Part shown: positions 39,181-64,000 of the stretch, piece by piece
Position numbering within the stretch: the stretch's first letter is position 1
How the letters are laid out: each line of letters begins with the position of its first letter
NCBI RefSeq assembly: GCF_947623445.1
Contig: NC_135247.1
Span: 1,614,501 to 1,678,500, forward strand
Reading direction: 5' to 3'
DNA: 64,000 nt
Source: Clavelina lepadiformis
Lineage: Eukaryota; Chordata; Ascidiacea; Aplousobranchia; Clavelinidae
Translations under genes and position numbers: made by a program
Notes under the pieces: generated by a model
Databases searched by the model: none
Seen by the model: the letters and a program-made list of their open reading frames with translations, nothing else
What the model was told of the DNA's origin: nothing

Positions 39181-40095
39181 AAATCGCGAATGTAAAATAC
39201 GAAAAACCTCTACTTTGAAAATATTTGTGTTTCAATATCATTTTTATCTTGTGGTGACTCATTGGCATTTTAAAGGTGATTTATTATACTTTGCTGTGCG
39301 ACCTTCACTCAACTCCTGTGTGAGCATGTAAGGCAGAGTGCGAAAGCTTCTTTGAAATAAGTTAGTTAAAATATTAGTTTCGTTTTGCAAAGTATTATTT
39401 AAATAAAATTTTTCAGATCCTTGAAAAATAAACTTGAATAGATGTCATTTTTACGTCATTAACACTTTTTATTATATCACTGCAACAAGTATGACGTCAG
39501 CATGTAGTTGAAACGCGTCAGTACGCTGGCGGTACGAAGAAGCAGAAGAAAAACGTCAACATCTCAGCAAATCAGCTAAGTACCGGTTATATATTAAAAC
39601 GAAGACCTTCTGTGCGCAAGTTACTTTACAAAGCATATCTGTTTCAGTTCCTTTTTGACAGTGAAATCAGATTCTAATTTTAACAATTTCAAATTGAAAA
39701 AAATTCAATCTTTTAAAGACAGCAGGGAGGAAAAATATTAAATTTTCTTAGAGTGATGCAGATAAGTTCGATCAAGCTTGTATCGAAGGTTGTAATCAAA
39801 AGTTAGTGATTGTTTTGACATGAATCATAACTTCCACTGTTAAAATCTAACTTCATTGTTTCATCAATTTTTTTCATTGTAGCTATGCATCAATCTCAGT
39901 ACCATATCAGTTTCACCATAGCTTTATATCAGAAAGGCTACCAGCAGAATTAAGCAAACTTTGCATTTTATTGATTGGATACTATAGGGTTTGGTTTATA
40001 GAGCAATCGGAAAAGTGATAAGTTTAGATCGATGCAACACAAAAACTTAAATTTAAGCTAATTGGAAGGTGTCGAAGAGAGTAAATTTCATGACT
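39181..40095. repeat. Right arm of large inverted duplication
   Basis: Inverted partner of 35079-36660. Its first 110 bp also match 4510-4660 downstream of paralogue C, showing this is the 3' flank of the secreted-peptide cassette. Homology ends at about 40095, exactly where the first macrosatellite unit begins. Confidence 0.8.
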
Positions 40096-40650
40096 TAAGG
40101 GGTCACTTCCCAATAAAACGACAAATTTGTGCCGGCAACACAGTGATTGTGACCGTGTCGCACTCAATGCGTCATATTAAAAAAAGTAAAAATTTTCCGG
40201 TCCAATGCGCATGTGACGTCGATGTGGAGTATTTCGTCGTTGCTTTGACGACAGCTGGTTCCAGGTCTAGGCTAAGTTGTAAATTTTGTGTGGGTTTGAA
40301 TTTTTGTTTTTTTGGAGTATTTGTCATAAAATGTTAAGCTAAAAACTTGTTGTAAAGTTTAGGCAATTGTTATAGAAAACTGAGTACATGGATTTTGTCC
40401 AAATTAAGACTGTAGACAGACATAACCTAGGTCTTGTTGCAAGCCAAAATTCAGGGTAGGTTTATGATGTAGTTTTGCGTTGGTAGCTTCTTGATTTAAT
40501 GTACTTTGCATTGAAAAGCCTATCTCTTTGAATTGGGACATGAACCCTTAAGCAAATAACAGAAGTTTACTTTAGTACTTAAAATTTAGTTGAAACTAGC
40601 TTATAGTTAATACACTACAGAGACGTAGGCGTAGCTAGGTCTCGAAATCA

Positions 40651-41133
40651 GCTTGATTTTCATCTAGACTACGCTAGCTTGATTTTCATCTAGACTACGC
40701 TAGCTTGATTTTCATCTAGACTACGCTAGGTTGATTTTCATCTAGACTACGCTAGCTTGATTTTCATCTAGACTACGCTAGCTTGATTTTCATCTAGACT
40801 ACGCTAGCTAGATTTTCATCTAGACTACGCTAGCTTGATTTTCATCTAGACTACGCTAGCTTGATTTTCATCTAGACTACGCTAGCTTGATTTTCATCTA
40901 GATTACGCTAGCTTGATTTTCATCTAGACTACGCTAGCTTGATTTTCATCTAGACTACGCTAGCTTGATTTTCATCTAGACTATGCTAGCTTGATTTTCA
41001 TCTAGACTACCCTAGCTAGATTTTCATCTAGACTACGCTAGCTTGATTTTCATCTAGACTACACTAGCTTGATTTTCATCTAGACTACGCTAGCTTGATT
41101 TTCATCTAGACTACGCTAGCTACATTTTCATCT
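40651..41133. repeat. 26-bp minisatellite in unit 1
   Basis: About 18.5 copies of GCTTGATTTTCATCTAGACTACGCTA-type 26-mers (written here only as a length-26 period; core CTAGACTACGCTAGC). Variant copies (GGTTG, GCTAG, GATTACG, CTATG, TACCC, TACAC) occur in the same order in every unit, so the whole block was copied with the unit. Equivalent blocks start at 42809, 44967, 47125, 49274, 51460, 53618, 55776, 57934, 60092 and 62250. Confidence 0.95.
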
Positions 41134-41243
41134 TGTCAGATTTGAAAGTCAGGAGAAGATTCCGGAAACACCGACATGGTGGAATCTATCTAGTGATTCG
41201 AGAAAAGTGCGATTTTATCTATTTGCATTGCACATTAAGCACA

Positions 41244-41325
41244 GTTGTCGTGGCCGAGTGGTTAAGGCGACAGACTCGAAATCAGTTAGGCTATGCCCGC
41301 GTAGGTTCGAATCCCGCCGACAACG
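41244..41325 (+). tRNA. tRNA-Ser(CGA), class a, unit 1
   Basis: 82 nt with a 7-bp acceptor stem (GTTGTCG with CGACAAC), discriminator G, D stem GCC/GGC, anticodon loop CTCGAAA (anticodon CGA, reads UCG) and a long serine-type variable arm. A box TGGCCGAGTGG and B box GGTTCGAATCC are both intact, and TTTT at 41336-41339 could end Pol III transcription. Lesions: an A-A mismatch in the anticodon stem (ACAGA/TCAGT), an A-C mismatch in the T stem (GTAGG/CCCGC) and a weakened variable arm. Confidence 0.6.
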
Positions 41326-41402
41326 CCGATATTACTTTTGCAATTTCATATGGATATTCGGAAAAGTGCGATTTTATCTATTTCATCTATGCATTAAGCA
41401 CA

Positions 41403-41484
41403 GTTGTCGTGGCCGAGTGGTTAAGGCGACAGACTCGAAATCTGTTGGGCCCTGCCCGCGTAGGTTCGAATCCCGCTGACAACG
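41403..41484 (+). tRNA. tRNA-Ser(CGA), class b (most intact), unit 1
   Basis: Same backbone with a perfect anticodon stem (ACAGA/TCTGT), perfect D stem, variable arm GGGC-CCT-GCCC, and intact A and B boxes. Only an A-C mismatch in the T stem and a G-T wobble at the base of the acceptor stem depart from ideal. It is followed by TTTT. This class is the best candidate for a working gene. Confidence 0.75.
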
Positions 41485-41561
41485 CCAATATTACTTTTGC
41501 AATTTCATATGGATATTCGGAAAAGTGCGATTTTATCTATTTCATCTATGCATTAAGCACA

Positions 41562-41643
41562 GTTGTCGTGGCCGAGTGGTTAAGGCGACAGACTCGAAAT
41601 CTGTTGGGCCCTGCCCGCGTAGGTTCAAAGCCCGCCGACAACG
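41562..41643 (+). tRNA. tRNA-Ser(CGA), class c (T-loop damaged), unit 1
   Basis: Acceptor, D and anticodon stems are perfect. The T loop is TTCAAAG instead of TTCGAAT, which breaks the B box (GGTTCAAAGCC), and the T stem has an A-C mismatch. Probably poorly transcribed and mis-folded, so likely a pseudogene. Confidence 0.5.
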
Positions 41644-41720
41644 CCGATATTACTTTTGCAATTTCATATGGATATTCAGAAATGTACCATTTTAACAATT
41701 TCATCTATGCATTAAGCACA

Positions 41721-41802
41721 GTTGTCGTGGCCGAGTGGTTAAAGTGACAGACTCGAAATATGTTGGGCCCAGCCCGCGTAGGTTCGAATCCTGCCGACAA
41801 CG
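41721..41802 (+). tRNA. tRNA-Ser(CGA), class d (D and anticodon stems damaged), unit 1
   Basis: Acceptor stem, T arm (GTAGG/CCTGC, all paired) and B box are intact. The D stem is broken (GCC/AGT) and the anticodon stem has a G-A mismatch (ACAGA/TATGT). Likely a transcribable pseudogene. Confidence 0.5.
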
Positions 41803-41881
41803 CCGATATTACTTTTGCAATTTCATATGGATATTGCATATGCATATTCATATGGATATGAAAGCAGAGGGTGGGTGGAGG

Positions 41882-41950
41882 GAACTCATGGCGCAGTGGA
41901 AAAATCGGAGAACGTCGATCGACAAGCTGCAGGTTCAAACCAGCGAGCCG
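41882..41950 (+). other. Decayed tRNA-like element (possible SINE head), unit 1
   Basis: A perfect A box TGGCGCAGTGG (41889-41899) and a near B box GGTTCAAACCA (41932-41942) lie 43 bp apart, as in a tRNA gene. Stems do not pair, so it is not a working tRNA but resembles the Pol III head of a tRNA-derived SINE. The same element recurs at the matching place in every unit. Confidence 0.45.
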
Positions 41951-41992
41951 CAGAGCGACGAGCCAACAACCGTTTGATGACCATTTGTCCGT

Positions 41993-42076
41993 CTACACCA
42001 CCAGCTGGCTAGACTCACGTCTACACCACCAGCTGGCTAGACTCACGTCTACACCACCAGCTGGCTAGACTCACGT
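41993..42076. repeat. Three 28-bp tandem repeats, unit 1
   Basis: Three copies of a 28-mer (CTACACCACCAGCTGGCTAG then ACTCACGT). Every unit has three copies except unit 5, which has four; unit 8 has one C-to-T change at 57174. Confidence 0.95.
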
Positions 42077-42187
42077 AAATTCTGAGTATTTAGGAAGCTG
42101 CCGGAAGCTGTAAAAAAAGTTGCAAAAGTTGCAAAAACTTGCCCTCCTAATCACCTAATCCTAATCCTAATCACTTACCTTATATAA

Positions 42188-42209
42188 TATATATAGATAT
42201 CTATATATA
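42188..42209. repeat. 22-bp perfect AT palindrome, unit 1
   Basis: TATATATAGA|TATCTATATATA-type perfect palindrome centred on GATATC, able to form a cruciform. It occurs once per unit. Confidence 0.9.
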
Positions 42210-43401
42210 GATATAGTCATAAGTAAAACTATAATTTATGAATTTCTTCACGTTTAAGGGGTCACTTCCCAATAAAACGACAAATTTGTGCCGGCAACAC
42301 AGTGATTGTGACCGTGTCGCACTCAATGCGTCATATTAAAAAAAGTAAAATTTTCCGGTCCAATGCGCATGTGACTTCGATGTGGAGTATTTCGTCGTTG
42401 CTTTGACGACAGCTGGTTCCAGGTCTAGGCTAAGTTTTAAATTTTGTGTGGGTTTGAATTTTTGTTTTTTTGGAGTATTTGTCATAAAATGTTAAGCTAA
42501 AAACTTGTTGTAAAGTTTAGGCAATTGTTATAGAAAACTGAGTACATGGATTTTGTCCAAATTAAGACTGTAGACAGACATAACCTAGGTCTTGTTGCAA
42601 GCCAAAATTCAGGGTAGGTTTATGATGTAGTTTTGCGTTGGTAGCTTCTTGATTTAATGTACTTTGCATTGAAAAGCCTATCTCTTTGAATTGGGACATG
42701 AACCCTTAAGCAAATAACAGAAGTTTACTTTAGTACTTAAAATTTAGTTGAAACTAGCTTATAGTTAATACACTACAGAGACGTAGGCGTAGCTAGGTCT
42801 CGAAATCAGCTTGATTTTCATCTAGACTACGCTAGCTTGATTTTCATCTAGACTACGCTAGCTTGATTTTCATCTAGACTACGCTAGGTTGATTTTCATC
42901 TAGACTACGCTAGCTTGATTTTCATCTAGACTACGCTAGCTTGATTTTCATCTAGACTACGCTAGCTAGATTTTCATCTAGACTACGCTAGCTTGATTTT
43001 CATCTAGACTACGCTAGCTTGATTTTCATCTAGACTACGCTAGCTTGATTTTCATCTAGATTACGCTAGCTTGATTTTCATCTAGACTACGCTAGCTTGA
43101 TTTTCATCTAGACTACGCTAGCTTGATTTTCATCTAGACTATGCTAGCTTGATTTTCATCTAGACTACCCTAGCTAGATTTTCATCTAGACTACGCTAGC
43201 TTGATTTTCATCTAGACTACACTAGCTTGATTTTCATCTAGACTACGCTAGCTTGATTTTCATCTAGACTACGCTAGCTACATTTTCATCTTGTCAGATT
43301 TGAAAGTCAGGAGAAGATTCCGGAAACACCGACATGGTGGAATCTATCTAGTGATTCGAGAAAAGTGCGATTTTATCTATTTGCATTGCACATTAAGCAC
43401 A

Positions 43402-43483
43402 GTTGTCGTGGCCGAGTGGTTAAGGCGACAGACTCGAAATCAGTTAGGCTATGCCCGCGTAGGTTCGAATCCCGCCGACAACG
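43402..43483 (+). tRNA. tRNA-Ser(CGA), class a, unit 2
   Basis: Same sequence and lesions as 41244-41325. Confidence 0.6.
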
Positions 43484-43560
43484 CCGATATTACTTTTGCA
43501 ATTTCATATGGATATTCGGAAAAGTGCGATTTTATCTATTTCATCTATGCATTAAGCACA

Positions 43561-43642
43561 GTTGTCGTGGCCGAGTGGTTAAGGCGACAGACTCGAAATC
43601 TGTTGGGCCCTGCCCGCGTAGGTTCGAATCCCGCTGACAACG
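43561..43642 (+). tRNA. tRNA-Ser(CGA), class b, unit 2
   Basis: Same as the near-intact copy at 41403-41484. Confidence 0.75.
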
Positions 43643-43719
43643 CCAATATTACTTTTGCAATTTCATATGGATATTCGGAAAAGTGCGATTTTATCTATTT
43701 CATCTATGCATTAAGCACA

Positions 43720-43801
43720 GTTGTCGTGGCCGAGTGGTTAAGGCGACAGACTCGAAATCTGTTGGGCCCTGCCCGCGTAGGTTCAAAGCCCGCCGACAAC
43801 G
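43720..43801 (+). tRNA. tRNA-Ser(CGA), class c, unit 2
   Basis: Same T-loop damage as 41562-41643. Confidence 0.5.
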
Positions 43802-43878
43802 CCGATATTACTTTTGCAATTTCATATGGATATTCAGAAATGTACCATTTTAACAATTTCATCTATGCATTAAGCACA

Positions 43879-43960
43879 GTTGTCGTGGCCGAGTGGTTAA
43901 AGTGACAGACTCGAAATATGTTGGGCCCAGCCCGCGTAGGTTCGAATCCTGCCGACAACG
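43879..43960 (+). tRNA. tRNA-Ser(CGA), class d, unit 2
   Basis: Same D-stem and anticodon-stem damage as 41721-41802. Confidence 0.5.
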
Positions 43961-45559
43961 CCGATATTACTTTTGCAATTTCATATGGATATTGCATATG
44001 CATATTCATATGGATATGAAAGCAGAGGGTGGGTGGAGGGAACTCATGGCGCAGTGGAAAAATCGGAGAACGTCGATCGACAAGCTGCAGGTTCAAACCA
44101 GCGAGCCGCAGAGCGACGAGCCAACAACCGTTTGATGACCATTTGTCCGTCTACACCACCAGCTGGCTAGACTCACGTCTACACCACCAGCTGGCTAGAC
44201 TCACGTCTACACCACCAGCTGGCTAGACTCACGTAAATTCTGAGTATTTAGGAAGCTGCCGGAAGCTGTAAAAAAAGTTGCAAAAGTTGCAAAAACTTGC
44301 CCTCCTAATCACCTAATCCTAATCCTAATCACTTACCTTATATAATATATATAGATATCTATATATAGATATAGTCATAAGTAAAACTATAATTTATGAA
44401 TTTCTTCACGTTTAAGGGGTCACTTCCCAATAAAACGACAAATTTGTGCCGGCAACACAGTGATTGTGACCGTGTCGCACTCAATGCGTCATATTAAAAA
44501 AAGTAAAATTTTCCGGTCCAATGCGCATGTGACTTCGATGTGGAGTATTTCGTCGTTGCTTTGACGACAGCTGGTTCCAGGTCTAGGCTAAGTTTTAAAT
44601 TTTGTGTGGGTTTGAATTTTTGTTTTTTTGGAGTATTTGTCATAAAATGTTAAGCTAAAAACTTGTTGTAAAGTTTAGGCAATTGTTATAGAAAACTGAG
44701 TACATGGATTTTGTCCAAATTAAGACTGTAGACAGACATAACCTAGGTCTTGTTGCAAGCCAAAATTCAGGGTAGGTTTATGATGTAGTTTTGCGTTGGT
44801 AGCTTCTTGATTTAATGTACTTTGCATTGAAAAGCCTATCTCTTTGAATTGGGACATGAACCCTTAAGCAAATAACAGAAGTTTACTTTAGTACTTAAAA
44901 TTTAGTTGAAACTAGCTTATAGTTAATACACTACAGAGACGTAGGCGTAGCTAGGTCTCGAAATCAGCTTGATTTTCATCTAGACTACGCTAGCTTGATT
45001 TTCATCTAGACTACGCTAGCTTGATTTTCATCTAGACTACGCTAGGTTGATTTTCATCTAGACTACGCTAGCTTGATTTTCATCTAGACTACGCTAGCTT
45101 GATTTTCATCTAGACTACGCTAGCTAGATTTTCATCTAGACTACGCTAGCTTGATTTTCATCTAGACTACGCTAGCTTGATTTTCATCTAGACTACGCTA
45201 GCTTGATTTTCATCTAGATTACGCTAGCTTGATTTTCATCTAGACTACGCTAGCTTGATTTTCATCTAGACTACGCTAGCTTGATTTTCATCTAGACTAT
45301 GCTAGCTTGATTTTCATCTAGACTACCCTAGCTAGATTTTCATCTAGACTACGCTAGCTTGATTTTCATCTAGACTACACTAGCTTGATTTTCATCTAGA
45401 CTACGCTAGCTTGATTTTCATCTAGACTACGCTAGCTACATTTTCATCTTGTCAGATTTGAAAGTCAGGAGAAGATTCCGGAAACACCGACATGGTGGAA
45501 TCTATCTAGTGATTCGAGAAAAGTGCGATTTTATCTATTTGCATTGCACATTAAGCACA

Positions 45560-45641
45560 GTTGTCGTGGCCGAGTGGTTAAGGCGACAGACTCGAAATCA
45601 GTTAGGCTATGCCCGCGTAGGTTCGAATCCCGCCGACAACG
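45560..45641 (+). tRNA. tRNA-Ser(CGA), class a, unit 3
   Basis: Same sequence and lesions as 41244-41325. Confidence 0.6.
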
Positions 45642-45718
45642 CCGATATTACTTTTGCAATTTCATATGGATATTCGGAAAAGTGCGATTTTATCTATTTC
45701 ATCTATGCATTAAGCACA

Positions 45719-45800
45719 GTTGTCGTGGCCGAGTGGTTAAGGCGACAGACTCGAAATCTGTTGGGCCCTGCCCGCGTAGGTTCGAATCCCGCTGACAACG
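45719..45800 (+). tRNA. tRNA-Ser(CGA), class b, unit 3
   Basis: Same as the near-intact copy at 41403-41484. Confidence 0.75.
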
Positions 45801-45877
45801 CCAATATTACTTTTGCAATTTCATATGGATATTCGGAAAAGTGCGATTTTATCTATTTCATCTATGCATTAAGCACA

Positions 45878-45959
45878 GTTGTCGTGGCCGAGTGGTTAAG
45901 GCGACAGACTCGAAATCTGTTGGGCCCTGCCCGCGTAGGTTCAAAGCCCGCCGACAACG
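45878..45959 (+). tRNA. tRNA-Ser(CGA), class c, unit 3
   Basis: Same T-loop damage as 41562-41643. Confidence 0.5.
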
Positions 45960-46036
45960 CCGATATTACTTTTGCAATTTCATATGGATATTCAGAAATG
46001 TACCATTTTAACAATTTCATCTATGCATTAAGCACA

Positions 46037-46118
46037 GTTGTCGTGGCCGAGTGGTTAAAGTGACAGACTCGAAATATGTTGGGCCCAGCCCGCGTAGGTT
46101 CGAATCCTGCCGACAACG
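46037..46118 (+). tRNA. tRNA-Ser(CGA), class d, unit 3
   Basis: Same D-stem and anticodon-stem damage as 41721-41802. Confidence 0.5.
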
Positions 46119-47717
46119 CCGATATTACTTTTGCAATTTCATATGGATATTGCATATGCATATTCATATGGATATGAAAGCAGAGGGTGGGTGGAGGGAA
46201 CTCATGGCGCAGTGGAAAAATCGGAGAACGTCGATCGACAAGCTGCAGGTTCAAACCAGCGAGCCGCAGAGCGACGAGCCAACAACCGTTTGATGACCAT
46301 TTGTCCGTCTACACCACCAGCTGGCTAGACTCACGTCTACACCACCAGCTGGCTAGACTCACGTCTACACCACCAGCTGGCTAGACTCACGTAAATTCTG
46401 AGTATTTAGGAAGCTGCCGGAAGCTGTAAAAAAAGTTGCAAAAGTTGCAAAAACTTGCCCTCCTAATCACCTAATCCTAATCCTAATCACTTACCTTATA
46501 TAATATATATAGATATCTATATATAGATATAGTCATAAGTAAAACTATAATTTATGAATTTCTTCACGTTTAAGGGGTCACTTCCCAATAAAACGACAAA
46601 TTTGTGCCGGCAACACAGTGATTGTGACCGTATCGCACTCAATGCGTCATATTAAAAAAAGTAAAATTTTCCGGTCCAATGCGCATGTGACTTCGATGTG
46701 GAGTATTTCGTCGTTGCTTTGACGACAGCTGGTTCCAGGTCTAGGCTAAGTTTTAAATTTTGTGTGGGTTTGAATTTTTGTTTTTTTGGAGTATTTGTCA
46801 TAAAATGTTAAGCTAAAAACTTGTTGTAAAGTTTAGGCAATTGTTATAGAAAACTGAGTACATGGATTTTGTCCAAATTAAGACTGTAGACAGACATAAC
46901 CTAGGTCTTGTTGCAAGCCAAAATTCAGGGTAGGTTTATGATGTAGTTTTGCGTTGGTAGCTTCTTGATTTAATGTACTTTGCATTGAAAAGCCTATCTC
47001 TTTGAATTGGGACATGAACCCTTAAGCAAATAACAGAAGTTTACTTTAGTACTTAAAATTTAGTTGAAACTAGCTTATAGTTAATACACTACAGAGACGT
47101 AGGCGTAGCTAGGTCTCGAAATCAGCTTGATTTTCATCTAGACTACGCTAGCTTGATTTTCATCTAGACTACGCTAGCTTGATTTTCATCTAGACTACGC
47201 TAGGTTGATTTTCATCTAGACTACGCTAGCTTGATTTTCATCTAGACTACGCTAGCTTGATTTTCATCTAGACTACGCTAGCTAGATTTTCATCTAGACT
47301 ACGCTAGCTTGATTTTCATCTAGACTACGCTAGCTTGATTTTCATCTAGACTACGCTAGCTTGATTTTCATCTAGATTACGCTAGCTTGATTTTCATCTA
47401 GACTACGCTAGCTTGATTTTCATCTAGACTACGCTAGCTTGATTTTCATCTAGACTATGCTAGCTTGATTTTCATCTAGACTACCCTAGCTAGATTTTCA
47501 TCTAGACTACGCTAGCTTGATTTTCATCTAGACTACACTAGCTTGATTTTCATCTAGACTACGCTAGCTTGATTTTCATCTAGACTACGCTAGCTACATT
47601 TTCATCTTGTCAGATTTGAAAGTCAGGAGAAGATTCCGGAAACACCGACATGGTGGAATCTATCTAGTGATTCGAGAAAAGTGCGATTTTATCTATTTGC
47701 ATTGCACATTAAGCACA

Positions 47718-47799
47718 GTTGTCGTGGCCGAGTGGTTAAGGCGACAGACTCGAAATCAGTTAGGCTATGCCCGCGTAGGTTCGAATCCCGCCGACAACG
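47718..47799 (+). tRNA. tRNA-Ser(CGA), class a, unit 4
   Basis: Same sequence and lesions as 41244-41325. Confidence 0.6.
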
Positions 47800-47876
47800 C
47801 CGATATTACTTTTGCAATTTCATATGGATATTCGGAAAAGTGCGATTTTATCTATTTCATCTATGCATTAAGCACA

Positions 47877-47958
47877 GTTGTCGTGGCCGAGTGGTTAAGG
47901 CGACAGACTCGAAATCTGTTGGGCCCTGCCCGCGTAGGTTCGAATCCCGCTGACAACG
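47877..47958 (+). tRNA. tRNA-Ser(CGA), class b, unit 4
   Basis: Same as the near-intact copy at 41403-41484. Confidence 0.75.
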
Positions 47959-48035
47959 CCAATATTACTTTTGCAATTTCATATGGATATTCGGAAAAGT
48001 GCGATTTTATCTATTTCATCTATGCATTAAGCACA

Positions 48036-48117
48036 GTTGTCGTGGCCGAGTGGTTAAGGCGACAGACTCGAAATCTGTTGGGCCCTGCCCGCGTAGGTTC
48101 AAAGCCCGCCGACAACG
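48036..48117 (+). tRNA. tRNA-Ser(CGA), class c, unit 4
   Basis: Same T-loop damage as 41562-41643. Confidence 0.5.
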
Positions 48118-48194
48118 CCGATATTACTTTTGCAATTTCATATGGATATTCAGAAATGTACCATTTTAACAATTTCATCTATGCATTAAGCACA

Positions 48195-48276
48195 GTTGTC
48201 GTGGCCGAGTGGTTAAAGTGACAGACTCGAAATATGTTGGGCCCAGCCCGCGTAGGTTCGAATCCTGCCGACAACG
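48195..48276 (+). tRNA. tRNA-Ser(CGA), class d, unit 4
   Basis: Same D-stem and anticodon-stem damage as 41721-41802. Confidence 0.5.
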
Positions 48277-49866
48277 CCGATATTACTTTTGCAATTTCAT
48301 ATGGATATTGCATATGCATATTCATATGGATATGAAAGCAGAGGGTGGGTGGAGGGAACTCATGGCGCAGTGGAAAAATCGGAGAACGTCGATCGACAAG
48401 CTGCAGGTTCAAACCAGCGAGCCGCAGAGCGACGAGCCAACAACCGTTTGATGACCATTTGTCCGTCTACACCACCAGCTGGCTAGACTCACGTCTACAC
48501 CACCAGCTGGCTAGACTCACGTCTACACCACCAGCTGGCTAGACTCACGTAAATTCTGAGTATTTAGGAAGCTGCCGGAAGCTGTAAAAAAAGTTGCAAA
48601 AACTTGCCCTCCTAATCACCTAATCCTAATCCTAATCACTTACCTTATATAATATATATAGATATCTATATATAGATATAGTCATAAGTAAAACTATAAT
48701 TTATGAATTTCTTCACGTTTAAGGGGTCACTTCCCAATAAAACGACAAATTTGTGCCGGCAACACAGTGATTGTGACCGTGTCGCACTCAATGCGTCATA
48801 TTAAAAAAAGTAAAATTTTCCGGTCCAATGCGCATGTGACTTCGATGTGGAGTATTTCGTCGTTGCTTTGACGACAGCTGGTTCCAGGTCTAGGCTAAGT
48901 TTTAAATTTTGTGTGGGTTTGAATTTTTGTTTTTTTGGAGTATTTGTCATAAAATGTTAAGCTAAAAACTTGTTGTAAAGTTTAGGCAATTGTTATAGAA
49001 AACTGAGTACATGGATTTTGTCCAAATTAAGACTGTAGACAGACATAACCTAGGTCTTGTTGCAAGCCAAAATTCAGGGTAGGTTTATGATGTAGTTTTG
49101 CGTTGGTAGCTTCTTGATTTAATGTACTTTGCATTGAAAAGCCTATCTCTTTGAATTGGGACATGAACCCTTAAGCAAATAACAGAAGTTTACTTTAGTA
49201 CTTAAAATTTAGTTGAAACTAGCTTATAGTTAATACACTACAGAGACGTAGGCGTAGCTAGGTCTCGAAATCAGCTTGATTTTCATCTAGACTACGCTAG
49301 CTTGATTTTCATCTAGACTACGCTAGCTTGATTTTCATCTAGACTACGCTAGGTTGATTTTCATCTAGACTACGCTAGCTTGATTTTCATCTAGACTACG
49401 CTAGCTTGATTTTCATCTAGACTACGCTAGCTAGATTTTCATCTAGACTACGCTAGCTTGATTTTCATCTAGACTACGCTAGCTTGATTTTCATCTAGAC
49501 TACGCTAGCTTGATTTTCATCTAGATTACGCTAGCTTGATTTTCATCTAGACTACGCTAGCTTGATTTTCATCTAGACTACGCTAGCTTGATTTTCATCT
49601 AGACTATGCTAGCTTGATTTTCATCTAGACTACCCTAGCTAGATTTTCATCTAGACTACGCTAGCTTGATTTTCATCTAGACTACACTAGCTTGATTTTC
49701 ATCTAGACTACGCTAGCTTGATTTTCATCTAGACTACGCTAGCTACATTTTCATCTTGTCAGATTTGAAAGTCAGGAGAAGATTCCGGAAACACCGACAT
49801 GGTGGAATCTATCTAGTGATTCGAGAAAAGTGCGATTTTATCTATTTGCATTGCACATTAAGCACA

Positions 49867-54292: not shown

Positions 54293-54369
54293 CCGATATT
54301 ACTTTTGCAATTTCATATGGATATTCGGAAAAGTGCGATTTTATCTATTTCATCTATGCATTAAGCACA

Positions 54370-54451
54370 GTTGTCGTGGCCGAGTGGTTAAGGCGACAGA
54401 CTCGAAATCTGTTGGGCCCTGCCCGCGTAGGTTCGAATCCCGCTGACAACG
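54370..54451 (+). tRNA. tRNA-Ser(CGA), class b, unit 7
   Basis: Same as the near-intact copy at 41403-41484. Confidence 0.75.
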
Positions 54452-54528
54452 CCAATATTACTTTTGCAATTTCATATGGATATTCGGAAAAGTGCGATTT
54501 TATCTATTTCATCTATGCATTAAGCACA

Positions 54529-54610
54529 GTTGTCGTGGCCGAGTGGTTAAGGCGACAGACTCGAAATCTGTTGGGCCCTGCCCGCGTAGGTTCAAAGCCC
54601 GCCGACAACG
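54529..54610 (+). tRNA. tRNA-Ser(CGA), class c, unit 7
   Basis: Same T-loop damage as 41562-41643. Confidence 0.5.
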
Positions 54611-54687
54611 CCGATATTACTTTTGCAATTTCATATGGATATTCAGAAATGTACCATTTTAACAATTTCATCTATGCATTAAGCACA

Positions 54688-54769
54688 GTTGTCGTGGCCG
54701 AGTGGTTAAAGTGACAGACTCGAAATATGTTGGGCCCAGCCCGCGTAGGTTCGAATCCTGCCGACAACG
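54688..54769 (+). tRNA. tRNA-Ser(CGA), class d, unit 7
   Basis: Same D-stem and anticodon-stem damage as 41721-41802. Confidence 0.5.
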
Positions 54770-56368
54770 CCGATATTACTTTTGCAATTTCATATGGATA
54801 TTGCATATGCATATTCATATGGATATGAAAGCAGAGGGTGGGTGGAGGGAACTCATGGCGCAGTGGAAAAATCGGAGAACGTCGATCGACAAGCTGCAGG
54901 TTCAAACCAGCGAGCCGCAGAGCGACGAGCCAACAACCGTTTGATGACCATTTGTCCGTCTACACCACCAGCTGGCTAGACTCACGTCTACACCACCAGC
55001 TGGCTAGACTCACGTCTACACCACCAGCTGGCTAGACTCACGTAAATTCTGAGTATTTAGGAAGCTGCCGGAAGCTGTAAAAAAAGTTGCAAAAGTTGCA
55101 AAAACTTGCCCTCCTAATCACCTAATCCTAATCCTAATCACTTACCTTATATAATATATATAGATATCTATATATAGATATAGTCATAAGTAAAACTATA
55201 ATTTATGAATTTCTTCACGTTTAAGGGGTCACTTCCCAATAAAACGACAAATTTGTGCCGGCAACACAGTGATTGTGACCGTGTCGCACTCAATGCGTCA
55301 TATTAAAAAAAGTAAAATTTTCCGGTCCAATGCGCATGTGACTTCGATGTGGAGTATTTCGTCGTTGCTTTGACGACAGCTGGTTCCAGGTCTAGGCTAA
55401 GTTTTAAATTTTGTGTGGGTTTGAATTTTTGTTTTTTTGGAGTATTTGTCATAAAATGTTAAGCTAAAAACTTGTTGTAAAGTTTAGGCAATTGTTATAG
55501 AAAACTGAGTACATGGATTTTGTCCAAATTAAGACTGTAGACAGACATAACCTAGGTCTTGTTGCAAGCCAAAATTCAGGGTAGGTTTATGATGTAGTTT
55601 TGCGTTGGTAGCTTCTTGATTTAATGTACTTTGCATTGAAAAGCCTATCTCTTTGAATTGGGACATGAACCCTTAAGCAAATAACAGAAGTTTACTTTAG
55701 TACTTAAAATTTAGTTGAAACTAGCTTATAGTTAATACACTACAGAGACGTAGGCGTAGCTAGGTCTCGAAATCAGCTTGATTTTCATCTAGACTACGCT
55801 AGCTTGATTTTCATCTAGACTACGCTAGCTTGATTTTCATCTAGACTACGCTAGGTTGATTTTCATCTAGACTACGCTAGCTTGATTTTCATCTAGACTA
55901 CGCTAGCTTGATTTTCATCTAGACTACGCTAGCTAGATTTTCATCTAGACTACGCTAGCTTGATTTTCATCTAGACTACGCTAGCTTGATTTTCATCTAG
56001 ACTACGCTAGCTTGATTTTCATCTAGATTACGCTAGCTTGATTTTCATCTAGACTACGCTAGCTTGATTTTCATCTAGACTACGCTAGCTTGATTTTCAT
56101 CTAGACTATGCTAGCTTGATTTTCATCTAGACTACCCTAGCTAGATTTTCATCTAGACTACGCTAGCTTGATTTTCATCTAGACTACACTAGCTTGATTT
56201 TCATCTAGACTACGCTAGCTTGATTTTCATCTAGACTACGCTAGCTACATTTTCATCTTGTCAGATTTGAAAGTCAGGAGAAGATTCCGGAAACACCGAC
56301 ATGGTGGAATCTATCTAGTGATTCGAGAAAAGTGCGATTTTATCTATTTGCATTGCACATTAAGCACA

Positions 56369-56450
56369 GTTGTCGTGGCCGAGTGGTTAAGGCGACAGAC
56401 TCGAAATCAGTTAGGCTATGCCCGCGTAGGTTCGAATCCCGCCGACAACG
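56369..56450 (+). tRNA. tRNA-Ser(CGA), class a, unit 8
   Basis: Same sequence and lesions as 41244-41325. Confidence 0.6.
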
Positions 56451-56527
56451 CCGATATTACTTTTGCAATTTCATATGGATATTCGGAAAAGTGCGATTTT
56501 ATCTATTTCATCTATGCATTAAGCACA

Positions 56528-56609
56528 GTTGTCGTGGCCGAGTGGTTAAGGCGACAGACTCGAAATCTGTTGGGCCCTGCCCGCGTAGGTTCGAATCCCG
56601 CTGACAACG
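56528..56609 (+). tRNA. tRNA-Ser(CGA), class b, unit 8
   Basis: Same as the near-intact copy at 41403-41484. Confidence 0.75.
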
Positions 56610-56686
56610 CCAATATTACTTTTGCAATTTCATATGGATATTCGGAAAAGTGCGATTTTATCTATTTCATCTATGCATTAAGCACA

Positions 56687-56768
56687 GTTGTCGTGGCCGA
56701 GTGGTTAAGGCGACAGACTCGAAATCTGTTGGGCCCTGCCCGCGTAGGTTCAAAGCCCGCCGACAACG
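56687..56768 (+). tRNA. tRNA-Ser(CGA), class c, unit 8
   Basis: Same T-loop damage as 41562-41643. Confidence 0.5.
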
Positions 56769-56845
56769 CCGATATTACTTTTGCAATTTCATATGGATAT
56801 TCAGAAATGTACCATTTTAACAATTTCATCTATGCATTAAGCACA

Positions 56846-56927
56846 GTTGTCGTGGCCGAGTGGTTAAAGTGACAGACTCGAAATATGTTGGGCCCAGCCC
56901 GCGTAGGTTCGAATCCTGCCGACAACG
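56846..56927 (+). tRNA. tRNA-Ser(CGA), class d, unit 8
   Basis: Same D-stem and anticodon-stem damage as 41721-41802. Confidence 0.5.
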
Positions 56928-58526
56928 CCGATATTACTTTTGCAATTTCATATGGATATTGCATATGCATATTCATATGGATATGAAAGCAGAGGGTGGG
57001 TGGAGGGAACTCATGGCGCAGTGGAAAAATCGGAGAACGTCGATCGACAAGCTGCAGGTTCAAACCAGCGAGCCGCAGAGCGACGAGCCAACAACCGTTT
57101 GATGACCATTTGTCCGTCTACACCACCAGCTGGCTAGACTCACGTCTACACCACCAGCTGGCTAGACTCACGTTTACACCACCAGCTGGCTAGACTCACG
57201 TAAATTCTGAGTATTTAGGAAGCTGCCGGAAGCTGTAAAAAAAGTTGCAAAAGTTGCAAAAACTTGCCCTCCTAATCACCTAATCCTAATCCTAATCACT
57301 TACCTTATATAATATATATAGATATCTATATATAGATATAGTCATAAGTAAAACTATAATTTATGAATTTCTTCACGTTTAAGGGGTCACTTCCCAATAA
57401 AACGACAAATTTGTGCCGGCAACACAGTGATTGTGACCGTGTCGCACTCAATGCGTCATATTAAAAAAAGTAAAATTTTCCGGTCCAATGCGCATGTGAC
57501 TTCGATGTGGAGTATTTCGTCGTTGCTTTGACGACAGCTGGTTCCAGGTCTAGGCTAAGTTTTAAATTTTGTGTGGGTTTGAATTTTTGTTTTTTTGGAG
57601 TATTTGTCATAAAATGTTAAGCTAAAAACTTGTTGTAAAGTTTAGGCAATTGTTATAGAAAACTGAGTACATGGATTTTGTCCAAATTAAGACTGTAGAC
57701 AGACATAACCTAGGTCTTGTTGCAAGCCAAAATTCAGGGTAGGTTTATGATGTAGTTTTGCGTTGGTAGCTTCTTGATTTAATGTACTTTGCATTGAAAA
57801 GCCTATCTCTTTGAATTGGGACATGAACCCTTAAGCAAATAACAGAAGTTTACTTTAGTACTTAAAATTTAGTTGAAACTAGCTTATAGTTAATACACTA
57901 CAGAGACGTAGGCGTAGCTAGGTCTCGAAATCAGCTTGATTTTCATCTAGACTACGCTAGCTTGATTTTCATCTAGACTACGCTAGCTTGATTTTCATCT
58001 AGACTACGCTAGGTTGATTTTCATCTAGACTACGCTAGCTTGATTTTCATCTAGACTACGCTAGCTTGATTTTCATCTAGACTACGCTAGCTAGATTTTC
58101 ATCTAGACTACGCTAGCTTGATTTTCATCTAGACTACGCTAGCTTGATTTTCATCTAGACTACGCTAGCTTGATTTTCATCTAGATTACGCTAGCTTGAT
58201 TTTCATCTAGACTACGCTAGCTTGATTTTCATCTAGACTACGCTAGCTTGATTTTCATCTAGACTATGCTAGCTTGATTTTCATCTAGACTACCCTAGCT
58301 AGATTTTCATCTAGACTACGCTAGCTTGATTTTCATCTAGACTACACTAGCTTGATTTTCATCTAGACTACGCTAGCTTGATTTTCATCTAGACTACGCT
58401 AGCTACATTTTCATCTTGTCAGATTTGAAAGTCAGGAGAAGATTCCGGAAACACCGACATGGTGGAATCTATCTAGTGATTCGAGAAAAGTGCGATTTTA
58501 TCTATTTGCATTGCACATTAAGCACA

Positions 58527-58608
58527 GTTGTCGTGGCCGAGTGGTTAAGGCGACAGACTCGAAATCAGTTAGGCTATGCCCGCGTAGGTTCGAATCCCGC
58601 CGACAACG
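58527..58608 (+). tRNA. tRNA-Ser(CGA), class a, unit 9
   Basis: Same sequence and lesions as 41244-41325. Confidence 0.6.
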
Positions 58609-58685
58609 CCGATATTACTTTTGCAATTTCATATGGATATTCGGAAAAGTGCGATTTTATCTATTTCATCTATGCATTAAGCACA

Positions 58686-58767
58686 GTTGTCGTGGCCGAG
58701 TGGTTAAGGCGACAGACTCGAAATCTGTTGGGCCCTGCCCGCGTAGGTTCGAATCCCGCTGACAACG
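58686..58767 (+). tRNA. tRNA-Ser(CGA), class b, unit 9
   Basis: Same as the near-intact copy at 41403-41484. Confidence 0.75.
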
Positions 58768-58844
58768 CCAATATTACTTTTGCAATTTCATATGGATATT
58801 CGGAAAAGTGCGATTTTATCTATTTCATCTATGCATTAAGCACA

Positions 58845-58926
58845 GTTGTCGTGGCCGAGTGGTTAAGGCGACAGACTCGAAATCTGTTGGGCCCTGCCCG
58901 CGTAGGTTCAAAGCCCGCCGACAACG
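58845..58926 (+). tRNA. tRNA-Ser(CGA), class c, unit 9
   Basis: Same T-loop damage as 41562-41643. Confidence 0.5.
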
Positions 58927-59003
58927 CCGATATTACTTTTGCAATTTCATATGGATATTCAGAAATGTACCATTTTAACAATTTCATCTATGCATTAAGC
59001 ACA

Positions 59004-59085
59004 GTTGTCGTGGCCGAGTGGTTAAAGTGACAGACTCGAAATATGTTGGGCCCAGCCCGCGTAGGTTCGAATCCTGCCGACAACG
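59004..59085 (+). tRNA. tRNA-Ser(CGA), class d, unit 9
   Basis: Same D-stem and anticodon-stem damage as 41721-41802. Confidence 0.5.
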
Positions 59086-60684
59086 CCGATATTACTTTTG
59101 CAATTTCATATGGATATTGCATATGCATATTCATATGGATATGAAAGCAGAGGGTGGGTGGAGGGAACTCATGGCGCAGTGGAAAAATCGGAGAACGTCG
59201 ATCGACAAGCTGCAGGTTCAAACCAGCGAGCCGCAGAGCGACGAGCCAACAACCGTTTGATGACCATTTGTCCGTCTACACCACCAGCTGGCTAGACTCA
59301 CGTCTACACCACCAGCTGGCTAGACTCACGTCTACACCACCAGCTGGCTAGACTCACGTAAATTCTGAGTATTTAGGAAGCTGCCGGAAGCTGTAAAAAA
59401 AGTTGCAAAAGTTGCAAAAACTTGCCCTCCTAATCACCTAATCCTAATCCTAATCACTTACCTTATATAATATATATAGATATCTATATATAGATATAGT
59501 CATAAGTAAAACTATAATTTATGAATTTCTTCACGTTTAAGGGGTCACTTCCCAATAAAACGACAAATTTGTGCCGGCAACACAGTGATTGTGACCGTGT
59601 CGCACTCAATGCGTCATATTAAAAAAAGTAAAATTTTCCGGTCCAATGCGCATGTGACTTCGATGTGGAGTATTTCGTCGTTGCTTTGACGACAGCTGGT
59701 TCCAGGTCTAGGCTAAGTTTTAAATTTTGTGTGGGTTTGAATTTTTGTTTTTTTGGAGTATTTGTCATAAAATGTTAAGCTAAAAACTTGTTGTAAAGTT
59801 TAGGCAATTGTTATAGAAAACTGAGTACATGGATTTTGTCCAAATTAAGACTGTAGACAGACATAACCTAGGTCTTGTTGCAAGCCAAAATTCAGGGTAG
59901 GTTTATGATGTAGTTTTGCGTTGGTAGCTTCTTGATTTAATGTACTTTGCATTGAAAAGCCTATCTCTTTGAATTGGGACATGAACCCTTAAGCAAATAA
60001 CAGAAGTTTACTTTAGTACTTAAAATTTAGTTGAAACTAGCTTATAGTTAATACACTACAGAGACGTAGGCGTAGCTAGGTCTCGAAATCAGCTTGATTT
60101 TCATCTAGACTACGCTAGCTTGATTTTCATCTAGACTACGCTAGCTTGATTTTCATCTAGACTACGCTAGGTTGATTTTCATCTAGACTACGCTAGCTTG
60201 ATTTTCATCTAGACTACGCTAGCTTGATTTTCATCTAGACTACGCTAGCTAGATTTTCATCTAGACTACGCTAGCTTGATTTTCATCTAGACTACGCTAG
60301 CTTGATTTTCATCTAGACTACGCTAGCTTGATTTTCATCTAGATTACGCTAGCTTGATTTTCATCTAGACTACGCTAGCTTGATTTTCATCTAGACTACG
60401 CTAGCTTGATTTTCATCTAGACTATGCTAGCTTGATTTTCATCTAGACTACCCTAGCTAGATTTTCATCTAGACTACGCTAGCTTGATTTTCATCTAGAC
60501 TACACTAGCTTGATTTTCATCTAGACTACGCTAGCTTGATTTTCATCTAGACTACGCTAGCTACATTTTCATCTTGTCAGATTTGAAAGTCAGGAGAAGA
60601 TTCCGGAAACACCGACATGGTGGAATCTATCTAGTGATTCGAGAAAAGTGCGATTTTATCTATTTGCATTGCACATTAAGCACA

Positions 60685-60766
60685 GTTGTCGTGGCCGAGT
60701 GGTTAAGGCGACAGACTCGAAATCAGTTAGGCTATGCCCGCGTAGGTTCGAATCCCGCCGACAACG
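60685..60766 (+). tRNA. tRNA-Ser(CGA), class a, unit 10
   Basis: Same sequence and lesions as 41244-41325. Confidence 0.6.
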
Positions 60767-60843
60767 CCGATATTACTTTTGCAATTTCATATGGATATTC
60801 GGAAAAGTGCGATTTTATCTATTTCATCTATGCATTAAGCACA

Positions 60844-60925
60844 GTTGTCGTGGCCGAGTGGTTAAGGCGACAGACTCGAAATCTGTTGGGCCCTGCCCGC
60901 GTAGGTTCGAATCCCGCTGACAACG
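60844..60925 (+). tRNA. tRNA-Ser(CGA), class b, unit 10
   Basis: Same as the near-intact copy at 41403-41484. Confidence 0.75.
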
Positions 60926-61002
60926 CCAATATTACTTTTGCAATTTCATATGGATATTCGGAAAAGTGCGATTTTATCTATTTCATCTATGCATTAAGCA
61001 CA

Positions 61003-61084
61003 GTTGTCGTGGCCGAGTGGTTAAGGCGACAGACTCGAAATCTGTTGGGCCCTGCCCGCGTAGGTTCAAAGCCCGCCGACAACG
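61003..61084 (+). tRNA. tRNA-Ser(CGA), class c, unit 10
   Basis: Same T-loop damage as 41562-41643. Confidence 0.5.
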
Positions 61085-61161
61085 CCGATATTACTTTTGC
61101 AATTTCATATGGATATTCAGAAATGTACCATTTTAACAATTTCATCTATGCATTAAGCACA

Positions 61162-61243
61162 GTTGTCGTGGCCGAGTGGTTAAAGTGACAGACTCGAAAT
61201 ATGTTGGGCCCAGCCCGCGTAGGTTCGAATCCTGCCGACAACG
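61162..61243 (+). tRNA. tRNA-Ser(CGA), class d, unit 10
   Basis: Same D-stem and anticodon-stem damage as 41721-41802. Confidence 0.5.
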
Positions 61244-62842
61244 CCGATATTACTTTTGCAATTTCATATGGATATTGCATATGCATATTCATATGGATAT
61301 GAAAGCAGAGGGTGGGTGGAGGGAACTCATGGCGCAGTGGAAAAATCGGAGAACGTCGATCGACAAGCTGCAGGTTCAAACCAGCGAGCCGCAGAGCGAC
61401 GAGCCAACAACCGTTTGATGACCATTTGTCCGTCTACACCACCAGCTGGCTAGACTCACGTCTACACCACCAGCTGGCTAGACTCACGTCTACACCACCA
61501 GCTGGCTAGACTCACGTAAATTCTGAGTATTTAGGAAGCTGCCGGAAGCTGTAAAAAAAGTTGCAAAAGTTGCAAAAACTTGCCCTCCTAATCACCTAAT
61601 CCTAATCCTAATCACTTACCTTATATAATATATATAGATATCTATATATAGATATAGTCATAAGTAAAACTATAATTTATGAATTTCTTCACGTTTAAGG
61701 GGTCACTTCCCAATAAAACGACAAATTTGTGCCGGCAACACAGTGATTGTGACCGTGTCGCACTCAATGCGTCATATTAAAAAAAGTAAAATTTTCCGGT
61801 CCAATGCGCATGTGACTTCGATGTGGAGTATTTCGTCGTTGCTTTGACGACAGCTGGTTCCAGGTCTAGGCTAAGTTTTAAATTTTGTGTGGGTTTGAAT
61901 TTTTGTTTTTTTGGAGTATTTGTCATAAAATGTTAAGCTAAAAACTTGTTGTAAAGTTTAGGCAATTGTTATAGAAAACTGAGTACATGGATTTTGTCCA
62001 AATTAAGACTGTAGACAGACATAACCTAGGTCTTGTTGCAAGCCAAAATTCAGGGTAGGTTTATGATGTAGTTTTGCGTTGGTAGCTTCTTGATTTAATG
62101 TACTTTGCATTGAAAAGCCTATCTCTTTGAATTGGGACATGAACCCTTAAGCAAATAACAGAAGTTTACTTTAGTACTTAAAATTTAGTTGAAACTAGCT
62201 TATAGTTAATACACTACAGAGACGTAGGCGTAGCTAGGTCTCGAAATCAGCTTGATTTTCATCTAGACTACGCTAGCTTGATTTTCATCTAGACTACGCT
62301 AGCTTGATTTTCATCTAGACTACGCTAGGTTGATTTTCATCTAGACTACGCTAGCTTGATTTTCATCTAGACTACGCTAGCTTGATTTTCATCTAGACTA
62401 CGCTAGCTAGATTTTCATCTAGACTACGCTAGCTTGATTTTCATCTAGACTACGCTAGCTTGATTTTCATCTAGACTACGCTAGCTTGATTTTCATCTAG
62501 ATTACGCTAGCTTGATTTTCATCTAGACTACGCTAGCTTGATTTTCATCTAGACTACGCTAGCTTGATTTTCATCTAGACTATGCTAGCTTGATTTTCAT
62601 CTAGACTACCCTAGCTAGATTTTCATCTAGACTACGCTAGCTTGATTTTCATCTAGACTACACTAGCTTGATTTTCATCTAGACTACGCTAGCTTGATTT
62701 TCATCTAGACTACGCTAGCTACATTTTCATCTTGTCAGATTTGAAAGTCAGGAGAAGATTCCGGAAACACCGACATGGTGGAATCTATCTAGTGATTCGA
62801 GAAAAGTGCGATTTTATCTATTTGCATTGCACATTAAGCACA

Positions 62843-62924
62843 GTTGTCGTGGCCGAGTGGTTAAGGCGACAGACTCGAAATCAGTTAGGCTATGCCCGCG
62901 TAGGTTCGAATCCCGCCGACAACG
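62843..62924 (+). tRNA. tRNA-Ser(CGA), class a, unit 11
   Basis: Same sequence and lesions as 41244-41325. Confidence 0.6.
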
Positions 62925-63001
62925 CCGATATTACTTTTGCAATTTCATATGGATATTCGGAAAAGTGCGATTTTATCTATTTCATCTATGCATTAAGCAC
63001 A

Positions 63002-63083
63002 GTTGTCGTGGCCGAGTGGTTAAGGCGACAGACTCGAAATCTGTTGGGCCCTGCCCGCGTAGGTTCGAATCCCGCTGACAACG
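63002..63083 (+). tRNA. tRNA-Ser(CGA), class b, unit 11
   Basis: Same as the near-intact copy at 41403-41484. Confidence 0.75.
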
Positions 63084-63160
63084 CCAATATTACTTTTGCA
63101 ATTTCATATGGATATTCGGAAAAGTGCGATTTTATCTATTTCATCTATGCATTAAGCACA

Positions 63161-63242
63161 GTTGTCGTGGCCGAGTGGTTAAGGCGACAGACTCGAAATC
63201 TGTTGGGCCCTGCCCGCGTAGGTTCAAAGCCCGCCGACAACG
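63161..63242 (+). tRNA. tRNA-Ser(CGA), class c, unit 11
   Basis: Same T-loop damage as 41562-41643. Confidence 0.5.
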
Positions 63243-63319
63243 CCGATATTACTTTTGCAATTTCATATGGATATTCAGAAATGTACCATTTTAACAATTT
63301 CATCTATGCATTAAGCACA

Positions 63320-63401
63320 GTTGTCGTGGCCGAGTGGTTAAAGTGACAGACTCGAAATATGTTGGGCCCAGCCCGCGTAGGTTCGAATCCTGCCGACAAC
63401 G
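63320..63401 (+). tRNA. tRNA-Ser(CGA), class d, unit 11
   Basis: Same D-stem and anticodon-stem damage as 41721-41802. Confidence 0.5.
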
Positions 63402-63852
63402 CCGATATTACTTTTGCAATTTCATATGGATATTGCATATGCATATTCATATGGATATGAAAGCAGAGGGTGGGTGGAGGGAACTCATGGCGCAGTGGAA
63501 AAATCGGAGAACGTCGATCGACAAGCTGCAGGTTCAAACCAGCGAGCCGCAGAGCGACGAGCCAACAACCGTTTGATGACCATTTGTCCGTCTACACCAC
63601 CAGCTGGCTAGACTCACGTCTACACCACCAGCTGGCTAGACTCACGTCTACACCACCAGCTGGCTAGACTCACGTAAATTCTGAGTATTTAGGAAGCTGC
63701 CGGAAGCTGTAAAAAAAGTTGCAAAAGTTGCAAAAACTTGCCCTCCTAATCACCTAATCCTAATCCTAATCACTTACCTTATATAATATATATAGATATC
63801 TATATATAGATATAGTCATAAGTAAAACTATAATTTATGAATTTCTTCACGT

Positions 63853-64000
63853 TTAAGGGGTCACTTCCCAATAAAACGACAAATTTGTGCCGGCAACACA
63901 GTGATTGTGACCGTGTCGCACTCAATGCGTCATATTAAAAAAAGTAAAATTTTCCGGTCCAATGCGCATGTGACTTCGATGTGGAGTATTTCGTCGTTGC
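63853..64000. repeat. Macrosatellite unit 12 (first 148 bp only)
   Basis: Begins TTAAGGGGTCACTTCCC like the others and is cut by the window edge, so the array continues to the right. Confidence 0.95.

Follow-up and report, generated by a model that had tools for sequence, protein, structure and literature searches.

Structure of the array

The DNA analyzed here is a window of 64,000 nucleotides of nuclear chromosome 8 of the ascidian Clavelina lepadiformis (C8:1614501-1678500; C8 comprises 19,509,797 bases), and genome-wide searches covered 209.06 Mb in 95 contigs. The right part of the window (40095..64000, + strand) is occupied by a tandem array of 11 full units and one partial unit, delimited on the basis of ARAGORN and Rfam predictions and of the unit boundaries. 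Each unit combines four genes resembling tRNA-Ser(CGA) with one copy of an inverted-repeat element of 456/457 bp, which fits a miniature inverted-repeat transposable element (MITE). This element, overlooked in an earlier reading of the same DNA (hereafter the original prediction), best explains where the array starts and stops.

ARAGORN identified 44 tRNA-Ser(CGA) loci in the window (41244-63403), all on the + strand, and the Rfam model RF00005 (cut-off 29 bits) recovered the identical 44 loci, which fall into four classes. The units start at positions 40095, 42254, 44412, 46570, 48719, 50905, 53063, 55221, 57379, 59537, 61695 and 63853, each of which is also the start of a MITE copy; their length is most often 2,158 bp (range 2,149-2,186) and their GC content is about 40%. 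The agreement of both programs on 44 loci confirms the original prediction of 11 full units of ~2,158 bp with four Ser(CGA) loci each on one strand. The predicted TTTT stretch was likewise seen, starting approximately 11 nt past each tRNA in the units read by eye, and the array does continue beyond the window, its right end lying at C8:1,696,306. In its entirety (C8:1,654,595-1,696,306; 42 kb) it has 19 units with 76 tRNA loci on the same strand, and the boundary element is present 20 times.

The first unit opens with the outermost left MITE (40095..40551, + strand; 457 bp, TTAA to TTAA, as read at the array boundary), followed by a 26-bp minisatellite (40650..41133, + strand; 18.6 copies), a block of which is present in every unit. 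The four tRNA-like genes come next (41244..41327, 41403..41487, 41562..41645 and 41721..41804). Downstream of them lies a tract (41865..41985, + strand) in which an A-box-like sequence (TGGCGCAGTGG) and a B-box-like sequence (GGTTCAAACC) were recognized by eye; it is possibly a fragment of a tRNA-derived short interspersed element, and no Rfam match was obtained for it up to E=1. A 28-bp minisatellite (41990..42075, + strand), with 3 copies here and 2-5 in the other units, precedes the first internal MITE (42254..42709, + strand; 456 bp), whose TTAA ends abut the unit sequences TTCTTCACGT on the left and GCAAATAACAG on the right.

The alignment of all 19 units revealed no variable position within the tRNAs, i.e., the units are homogenized. 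Differences between them are mostly shifts in the copy number of the 26-bp and 28-bp minisatellites, and the most divergent units are the first, the 17th and the last, a pattern that fits unequal exchange. According to the available part of the genome report (PMC10884593), the assembly is based on 117-fold HiFi data obtained from DNA sheared to 12-20 kb. Since such fragments cannot span 42 kb, the exact number of units is uncertain, and the same disproportion is what could be held in favor of an assembly artefact or of a collapsed or expanded repeat. Given the sequencing depth, the unique flanks on both sides, the variants and length changes that distinguish individual units, and the related arrays on other chromosomes, an artefact is unlikely, and we regard this explanation as extremely improbable.

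The boundary element

The element present once per unit has the general structure TTAA-GGGG...CCCC-TTAA, with terminal inverted repeats (TIRs; GGGGTCACTTCCCAAT and GGGGTCATGTCCCAAT) identical at 14 of 16 bases. The 457-bp repeat was also considered as a possible long terminal repeat (LTR), and this reading was ruled out: LTR retroelements end in TG...CA, and the element ends in GGGG...CCCC with real inverted repeats. TTAA was found at the 37 unit-internal 5' flanks (of 49 flanks read and 67 known 5' ends), and the TIRs have the purine-purine ends which, together with a TTAA target, characterize Kolobok-type (T2) MITEs in the portion of the source available (PMC6004289). Because of these ends and the TTAA, the element fits a Kolobok-like non-autonomous TIR transposon, as judged from its sequence. 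A piggyBac identity was excluded, since the element begins with GGGG and not with CC[C/T]T (criterion taken from the available part of PMC2872659).

Array ends and related loci

The array starts exactly at the TTAA of the left-outermost MITE and stops exactly at the TTAA of the right-outermost one, with unrelated DNA outside. Its left flank (..AAATTTCATGAC) is similar neither to the unit nor to the other flanks compared, and 16 flanks (62-407 bp), examined all-against-all and against the unit, gave no similarity at E<=0.001.

Four other loci were read at both ends: (i) the tRNA-Ser array of chromosome 7, also bounded by MITEs, with TTCA on both outer sides and TTAA at the internal flanks read; (ii) C8:15.98-16.007, an array of at least 12 MITE copies, with 12 exact MITE 5' ends (flanks of three read), MITE-bounded and with TTAA on both sides; (iii) C8:17.761-17.764, a MITE-unit-MITE structure with the two MITEs about 2.35 kb apart and outer TTAA on both sides; and (iv) a solo MITE at C6:5.198 Mb, with unrelated flanks and TTCA on both sides. 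The two C8 loci were assigned by their unit flanks and MITEs. With the window array included, the outer 4-mers match at all five loci (four arrays or units and one solo element).

In the genome, 67 MITE 5' ends were found as exact 22-mer matches, a count that excludes mismatched copies; the 49 flanks read comprise 37 unit flanks and 12 of unique DNA. One-sided unique edges carry TTGA (C1:26.045), TAAA (C2:24.626), TTTA (C3:22.415, with inverted unit sequence on the opposite side), TCAA (C8:16.97, where half a MITE is fused to a tRNA-Ser) or TTAA (C1:25.027, with a truncated MITE, as well as C6:19.72 and C2:2.689). The last two have nearly the same flank and therefore probably represent one duplicated site. 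The MITE 3' ends number 114. Fourteen of their flanks were read: 4 are unique (C8:15.98, C8:17.764, C3:4.899 and C7:10.787), 6 are the standard unit flank, 1 is inverted unit sequence and 3 belong to the C1:26.05 array, in which the same flank of its own follows all three MITE 3' ends read. Array sequence follows the last MITE 3' ends among the matches listed for C1:26.05 and C2:24.64. No 5' end was found at the expected place for the C7:10.787 Mb copy, which is thus truncated or rearranged and not usable as a solo element.

At C8:16.97 Mb and C9:14.53 Mb, 5' pieces of the MITE are joined to tRNA-Ser with little or no intervening unit sequence; these junctions are probably older rearranged forms of the MITE-tRNA association. 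A unit piece without a MITE on chromosome 2 was considered as an empty site and rejected, as the surrounding AT-rich tract is missing too.

The flanking duplications would also be accounted for by composite transposition, the main rival to the recombination model presented below. Here, two MITEs with the enclosed tRNA unit would have been mobilized by a transposase acting on their outermost inverted repeats, creating a new 4-bp duplication at each site, and the unit would have been amplified in place. Consistent with this are the outer 4-mers, which match within and vary between the loci read at both ends (TTAA, TTCA) and vary also at the one-sided edges, the intact TGACCCC end of the MITE that closes the window array on the right (the other 19 copies have GAACCC), and the size of the C8:17.76 locus (about 3.2 kb), which is small enough to transpose. 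At this very locus, however, the two outer MITEs differ at a diagnostic site in the left half of the element (T142 in the left-outer copy, G142 in the right-outer one), and a lone 457-bp MITE is generally expected to be more mobile than a composite. We consider composite transposition rather unlikely.

State of the tRNA copies

Each of the four classes, all on the + strand, contains at least one non-canonical stem pair. Class 1 (41244..41327; 51.1 bits) has an A-A mismatch in the anticodon stem and an A-C mismatch in the T stem; class 2 (41403..41487; 54.3 bits) an A-C mismatch in the T stem and a G-U pair in the acceptor stem; class 3 (41562..41645; 52.3 bits) an A-C mismatch in the T stem and an altered T loop (TTCAAAG); and class 4 (41721..41804; 45.5 bits) mismatches in the D stem and the anticodon stem. 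The D-arm/anticodon string of class 4 is private to the window array (19 of 19 genome matches). Scores far below the threshold in all classes had been named in advance as a refutation of the tRNA macrosatellite; with 45.5-54.3 bits against the cut-off of 29, this objection does not apply.

In the related unit on chromosome 7, every stem pair checked is intact in three of the four tRNAs, which score 62.9-64.3 bits in Rfam; the fourth, the AGA copy, is not fully paired and scores 51.5 bits. The best matches of window classes 1-4 are chromosome-7 copies 1, 2, 2 and 3 (64.3, 62.9, 62.9 and 62.9 bits, respectively), so that the window classes lie 9-17 bits below their intact counterparts. The genome contains 19 copies of one Ser(CGA) 82-mer with complete stem pairing (chromosome 2: 2, chromosome 6: 7, chromosome 7: 9, C8:3.06 Mb: 1), and none of these 19 occurrences lies inside the window array.

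A comparison of the window unit with the chromosome-7 unit, using the best-matching tRNA copies, gave 11 differences in 328 sites for the four tRNAs and 6 in 308 for the adjacent spacers; the MITE showed 6 in 456, and four further parts together 11 in 484. There is no sign of purifying selection on the tRNA parts relative to the spacers (Fisher p 0.33), and the difference between the tRNA parts and all other compared parts (11/328 versus 23/1248) is not significant (Fisher p 0.13). The direction of the tRNA-versus-spacer test runs against constraint; given the small sample, weak constraint would still be compatible with it. As the tRNAs show no excess conservation, passing a covariance threshold alone demonstrates no function here.

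Given the imperfect stem pairing of every class and the gap of 9-17 bits to the best-matching intact chromosome-7 copies, the window tRNAs resemble passengers in decay and not genes that serve as a dedicated tRNA source. Such a source, one of the possibilities raised in the original prediction, was dropped as the main reading after the stem checks and the genome census, in which the fully paired 82-mer was never encountered in the array; the original description as a tandem array of macrosatellite type that includes a tRNA-derived part stands. In a broader version of the functional explanation, selection would maintain the loci as a source of Ser-tRNA or tRNA fragments, or as a boundary element bound by RNA polymerase III (Pol III) or TFIIIC. 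In its favor, none of the 44 loci in the window falls below the Rfam cut-off, the array still has A-box and TTTT stretches and has largely preserved the B box, and human tRNA repeats at 1q23.3 bind CTCF and have been proposed as a boundary element (PMC4041453, in the part available). With stem mismatches in all four classes, and with tRNA parts that have diverged from their chromosome-7 counterparts no more slowly than the spacer (in a small sample), selective maintenance appears improbable.

The tRNA-Ser family across the genome

The window array is one member of a large family of tRNA-Ser arrays. A genome search for the exact Ser(NGA) core gave 749 occurrences (486 + 263; reversed-pattern control, 0), 359 of them in the CGA form (225 + 134; control, 0). 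A 121-bp query composed of one tRNA and its spacer has at least 337 matches, including ones on chromosomes 2, 3, 6, 7 and 8. The emphasis originally placed on 44 loci for a single minor anticodon thus proves to be a local view. The chromosome-7 array has a period of 2,309 bp and, where read, units with the order Ser TGA-CGA-CGA-AGA. Three serine anticodons are there (C7:19027501-19031500) carried on nearly one tRNA body.

Several other tRNA loci were recorded in the course of the census. The region C6:18,374,877-18,420,485 contains dense tRNA-Ser monomers every 159 bp in both orientations, a layout that suggests a large inverted repeat. At C3:22.43 Mb (L041:1686-1769), a serine-type tRNA body carries the anticodon CAA, and ARAGORN classifies it as Leu. 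Were it expressed, UUG codons could be misread as serine, though a decayed copy is more likely. A tRNA macro-array at C9:4,936,555-5,170,352 is built of Lys(TTT)-Leu(TAG)-Leu(AAG) units, which are about 1,180 bp apart in the loci examined, its Lys genes reaching 75.9 Rfam bits. The only trace of the window unit in this Lys/Leu array is a 71-bp stretch of 86% identity in one of 30 loci (L052).

Origin of the array

We favor, with a rough probability of 0.6, a model in which the tRNA unit entered a resident solo MITE by homologous recombination between two MITE copies and was then amplified by unequal exchange. In this model, tRNA-Ser(NGA) genes would already have been tandemly amplified when a MITE inserted into one of the units, and a solo copy of the same MITE would have resided at C8:1.654 Mb. 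A unit, either as an excised circle or as a segment of another array, would have crossed over with this solo copy, yielding the structure flank-TTAA-MITE-unit-MITE-TTAA-flank, and unequal exchange between the direct MITE repeats and between units would have produced the 19 homogenized units. The tRNA copies would be neutral passengers that have kept their A boxes and mostly their B boxes and lost stem pairing; occasional Pol III transcription of them may occur.

In addition to the MITE-bounded array ends and the matching outer 4-mers at all five loci described above, the position of the MITE within the unit provides a first line of evidence. The same site, between TTCTTCACGT and GCAAATAACAG, is interrupted by the MITE on C7 (with a one-base change) and at C8:15.99, C2:2.68 and C7:17.38. 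The segment inserted at the window locus is therefore a circular permutation of the unit opened at the MITE, as a crossover with a circle or an array predicts. This also bears on an origin in place, in which MITEs would have inserted independently on either side of a tRNA cluster already present, and a crossover between the two would have generated the array. The differences between outer and internal MITEs would equally fit such a two-MITE crossover; however, the unit edges at the MITEs correspond to the two sides of a single MITE insertion at other loci, and two independent insertions would have to match the permuted unit to the same base, which largely refutes this scenario and leaves it very improbable.

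The second line of evidence comes from diagnostic variants of the MITE. Compared with the internal copies, the outer-left one deviates at just three sites, all of them in its left half, and the outer-right one only near its right end. Both outer copies thus look chimeric, and differences confined to one half are what a crossover between a resident and an incoming MITE predicts. The right-end variant GAACCC is present in 19 of the 20 MITEs of the window array and in all five listed copies of C2:24.63, and in no other copy among the 100 of 114 matches listed; this common variant points to the C2:24.63 tRNA-array lineage as the donor side. The left-half variant T142 occurs in all 20 MITEs of the window array and in only three places outside it. 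Two of these are left-outer MITEs next to unique DNA, at C8:17.761 and C3:22.415; the third is a copy at C6:1.706 Mb, for which no MITE 5' end was found at the expected place and which is not usable as a solo element.

Several observations weigh against the recombination model. T142 is not confined to the outer-left copy, and A34, exclusive to the window array, is likewise found in 20 of 20 copies; the internal MITEs thus do not represent an unmixed donor type, and the model must be supplemented by gene conversion or an early crossover, which would have carried the resident left half inward through the array. An empty allele, a circle or a donor array with identical tRNA classes was not encountered, class 4 being private to the window array. 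The solo MITE at C6:5.198, the single one whose two ends were both read, carries G142 instead of T142. Finally, among the matches listed, there are Ser arrays with no exact MITE end nearby (e.g., C1:25.86), which means that the MITE is unnecessary for amplification as such.

As an extension of the recombination model, the MITE insertion might have made the tRNA unit a portable cassette, and solo MITEs might serve as dispersed landing sites: circles or array segments containing a MITE would leave one chromosome, re-enter at a solo copy and expand, thereby seeding new tRNA arrays. We put this forward tentatively, at slightly less than even odds. That the window array and at least one other tRNA array are enclosed by MITE ends suggests that MITE copies let blocks of tRNA genes move between chromosomes.

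Other features of the window

On the minus strand, positions 25281-28997 contain an uninterrupted frame of 1,238 codons; a LOTUS (OST-HTH) domain and four matches to Tudor were seen in its translation. We take its product to be TDRD5/7-like, and the frame is possibly an intronless retrocopy. A 98-bp direct duplication with 95% matches is located at 18368-18561.

Comparison with known systems and significance

Tandem tRNA arrays are already known, as are satellites made by transposon recombination. In Entamoeba, tRNA arrays are also composed of head-to-tail units with several tRNAs, short tandem repeats between genes and mostly uniform copies, and in E. histolytica they include almost all tRNA genes (PMC2652664). 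The Clavelina units differ in carrying a MITE and in having MITE ends as array ends, while the available part of that source contains no mention of transposons at the Entamoeba array ends. The human tRNA variable number tandem repeat at 1q23.3 is likewise a macrosatellite of near-identical tRNA-containing units (9-43 per allele), but its GC-rich 7.3-kb unit, which binds CTCF, contains five tRNA genes of several kinds (PMC4041453, in the part available), compared with four degenerate Ser(CGA) copies in a 2.16-kb unit of about 40% GC.

With respect to the element, the closest parallels are the Kolobok-type (T2) MITEs of Xenopus (Xmix/Xstir), which share the TTAA target, the purine-purine ends and an associated tandem repeat. 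According to the portion of the source available (PMC6004289), the Xenopus ends are AGGRR, as opposed to GGGG in Clavelina, and Xstir consists of an internal MITE segment that was amplified, whereas the Clavelina repeat is a tRNA unit between whole MITEs. Satellites derived from recombination between transposon copies or LTRs are also tandem repeats sharing a copy of the element, but as far as described in the available parts of the sources (PMC12628747, PMC9659126), they multiply the elements' own sequence, while here the element is a MITE and the multiplied cargo consists of tRNA genes. Coral piggyBac-like CMITEs are TTAA-flanked MITEs arranged in tandem as well, with the CC[C/T]T ends typical of piggyBac rather than GGGG (PMC2872659, in the part available).

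In the sources found by our literature search, to the extent that they were available, neither nuclear tRNA arrays of Clavelina nor MITE-bounded tRNA arrays are described. As far as the literature was searched, a tRNA macrosatellite ending at MITE ends with a flanking duplication, and the coexistence of solo, short and long forms in one genome, are new. The numbers and positions of animal tRNA genes change quickly, and the movement of whole clusters is poorly understood. The finding also calls for caution, since satellite passengers can account for many of the tRNA genes that a covariance model detects in a single genome. In C. lepadiformis, the array edges, target-site duplications and chimeric MITEs seem to record the route by which tRNA arrays were dispersed.

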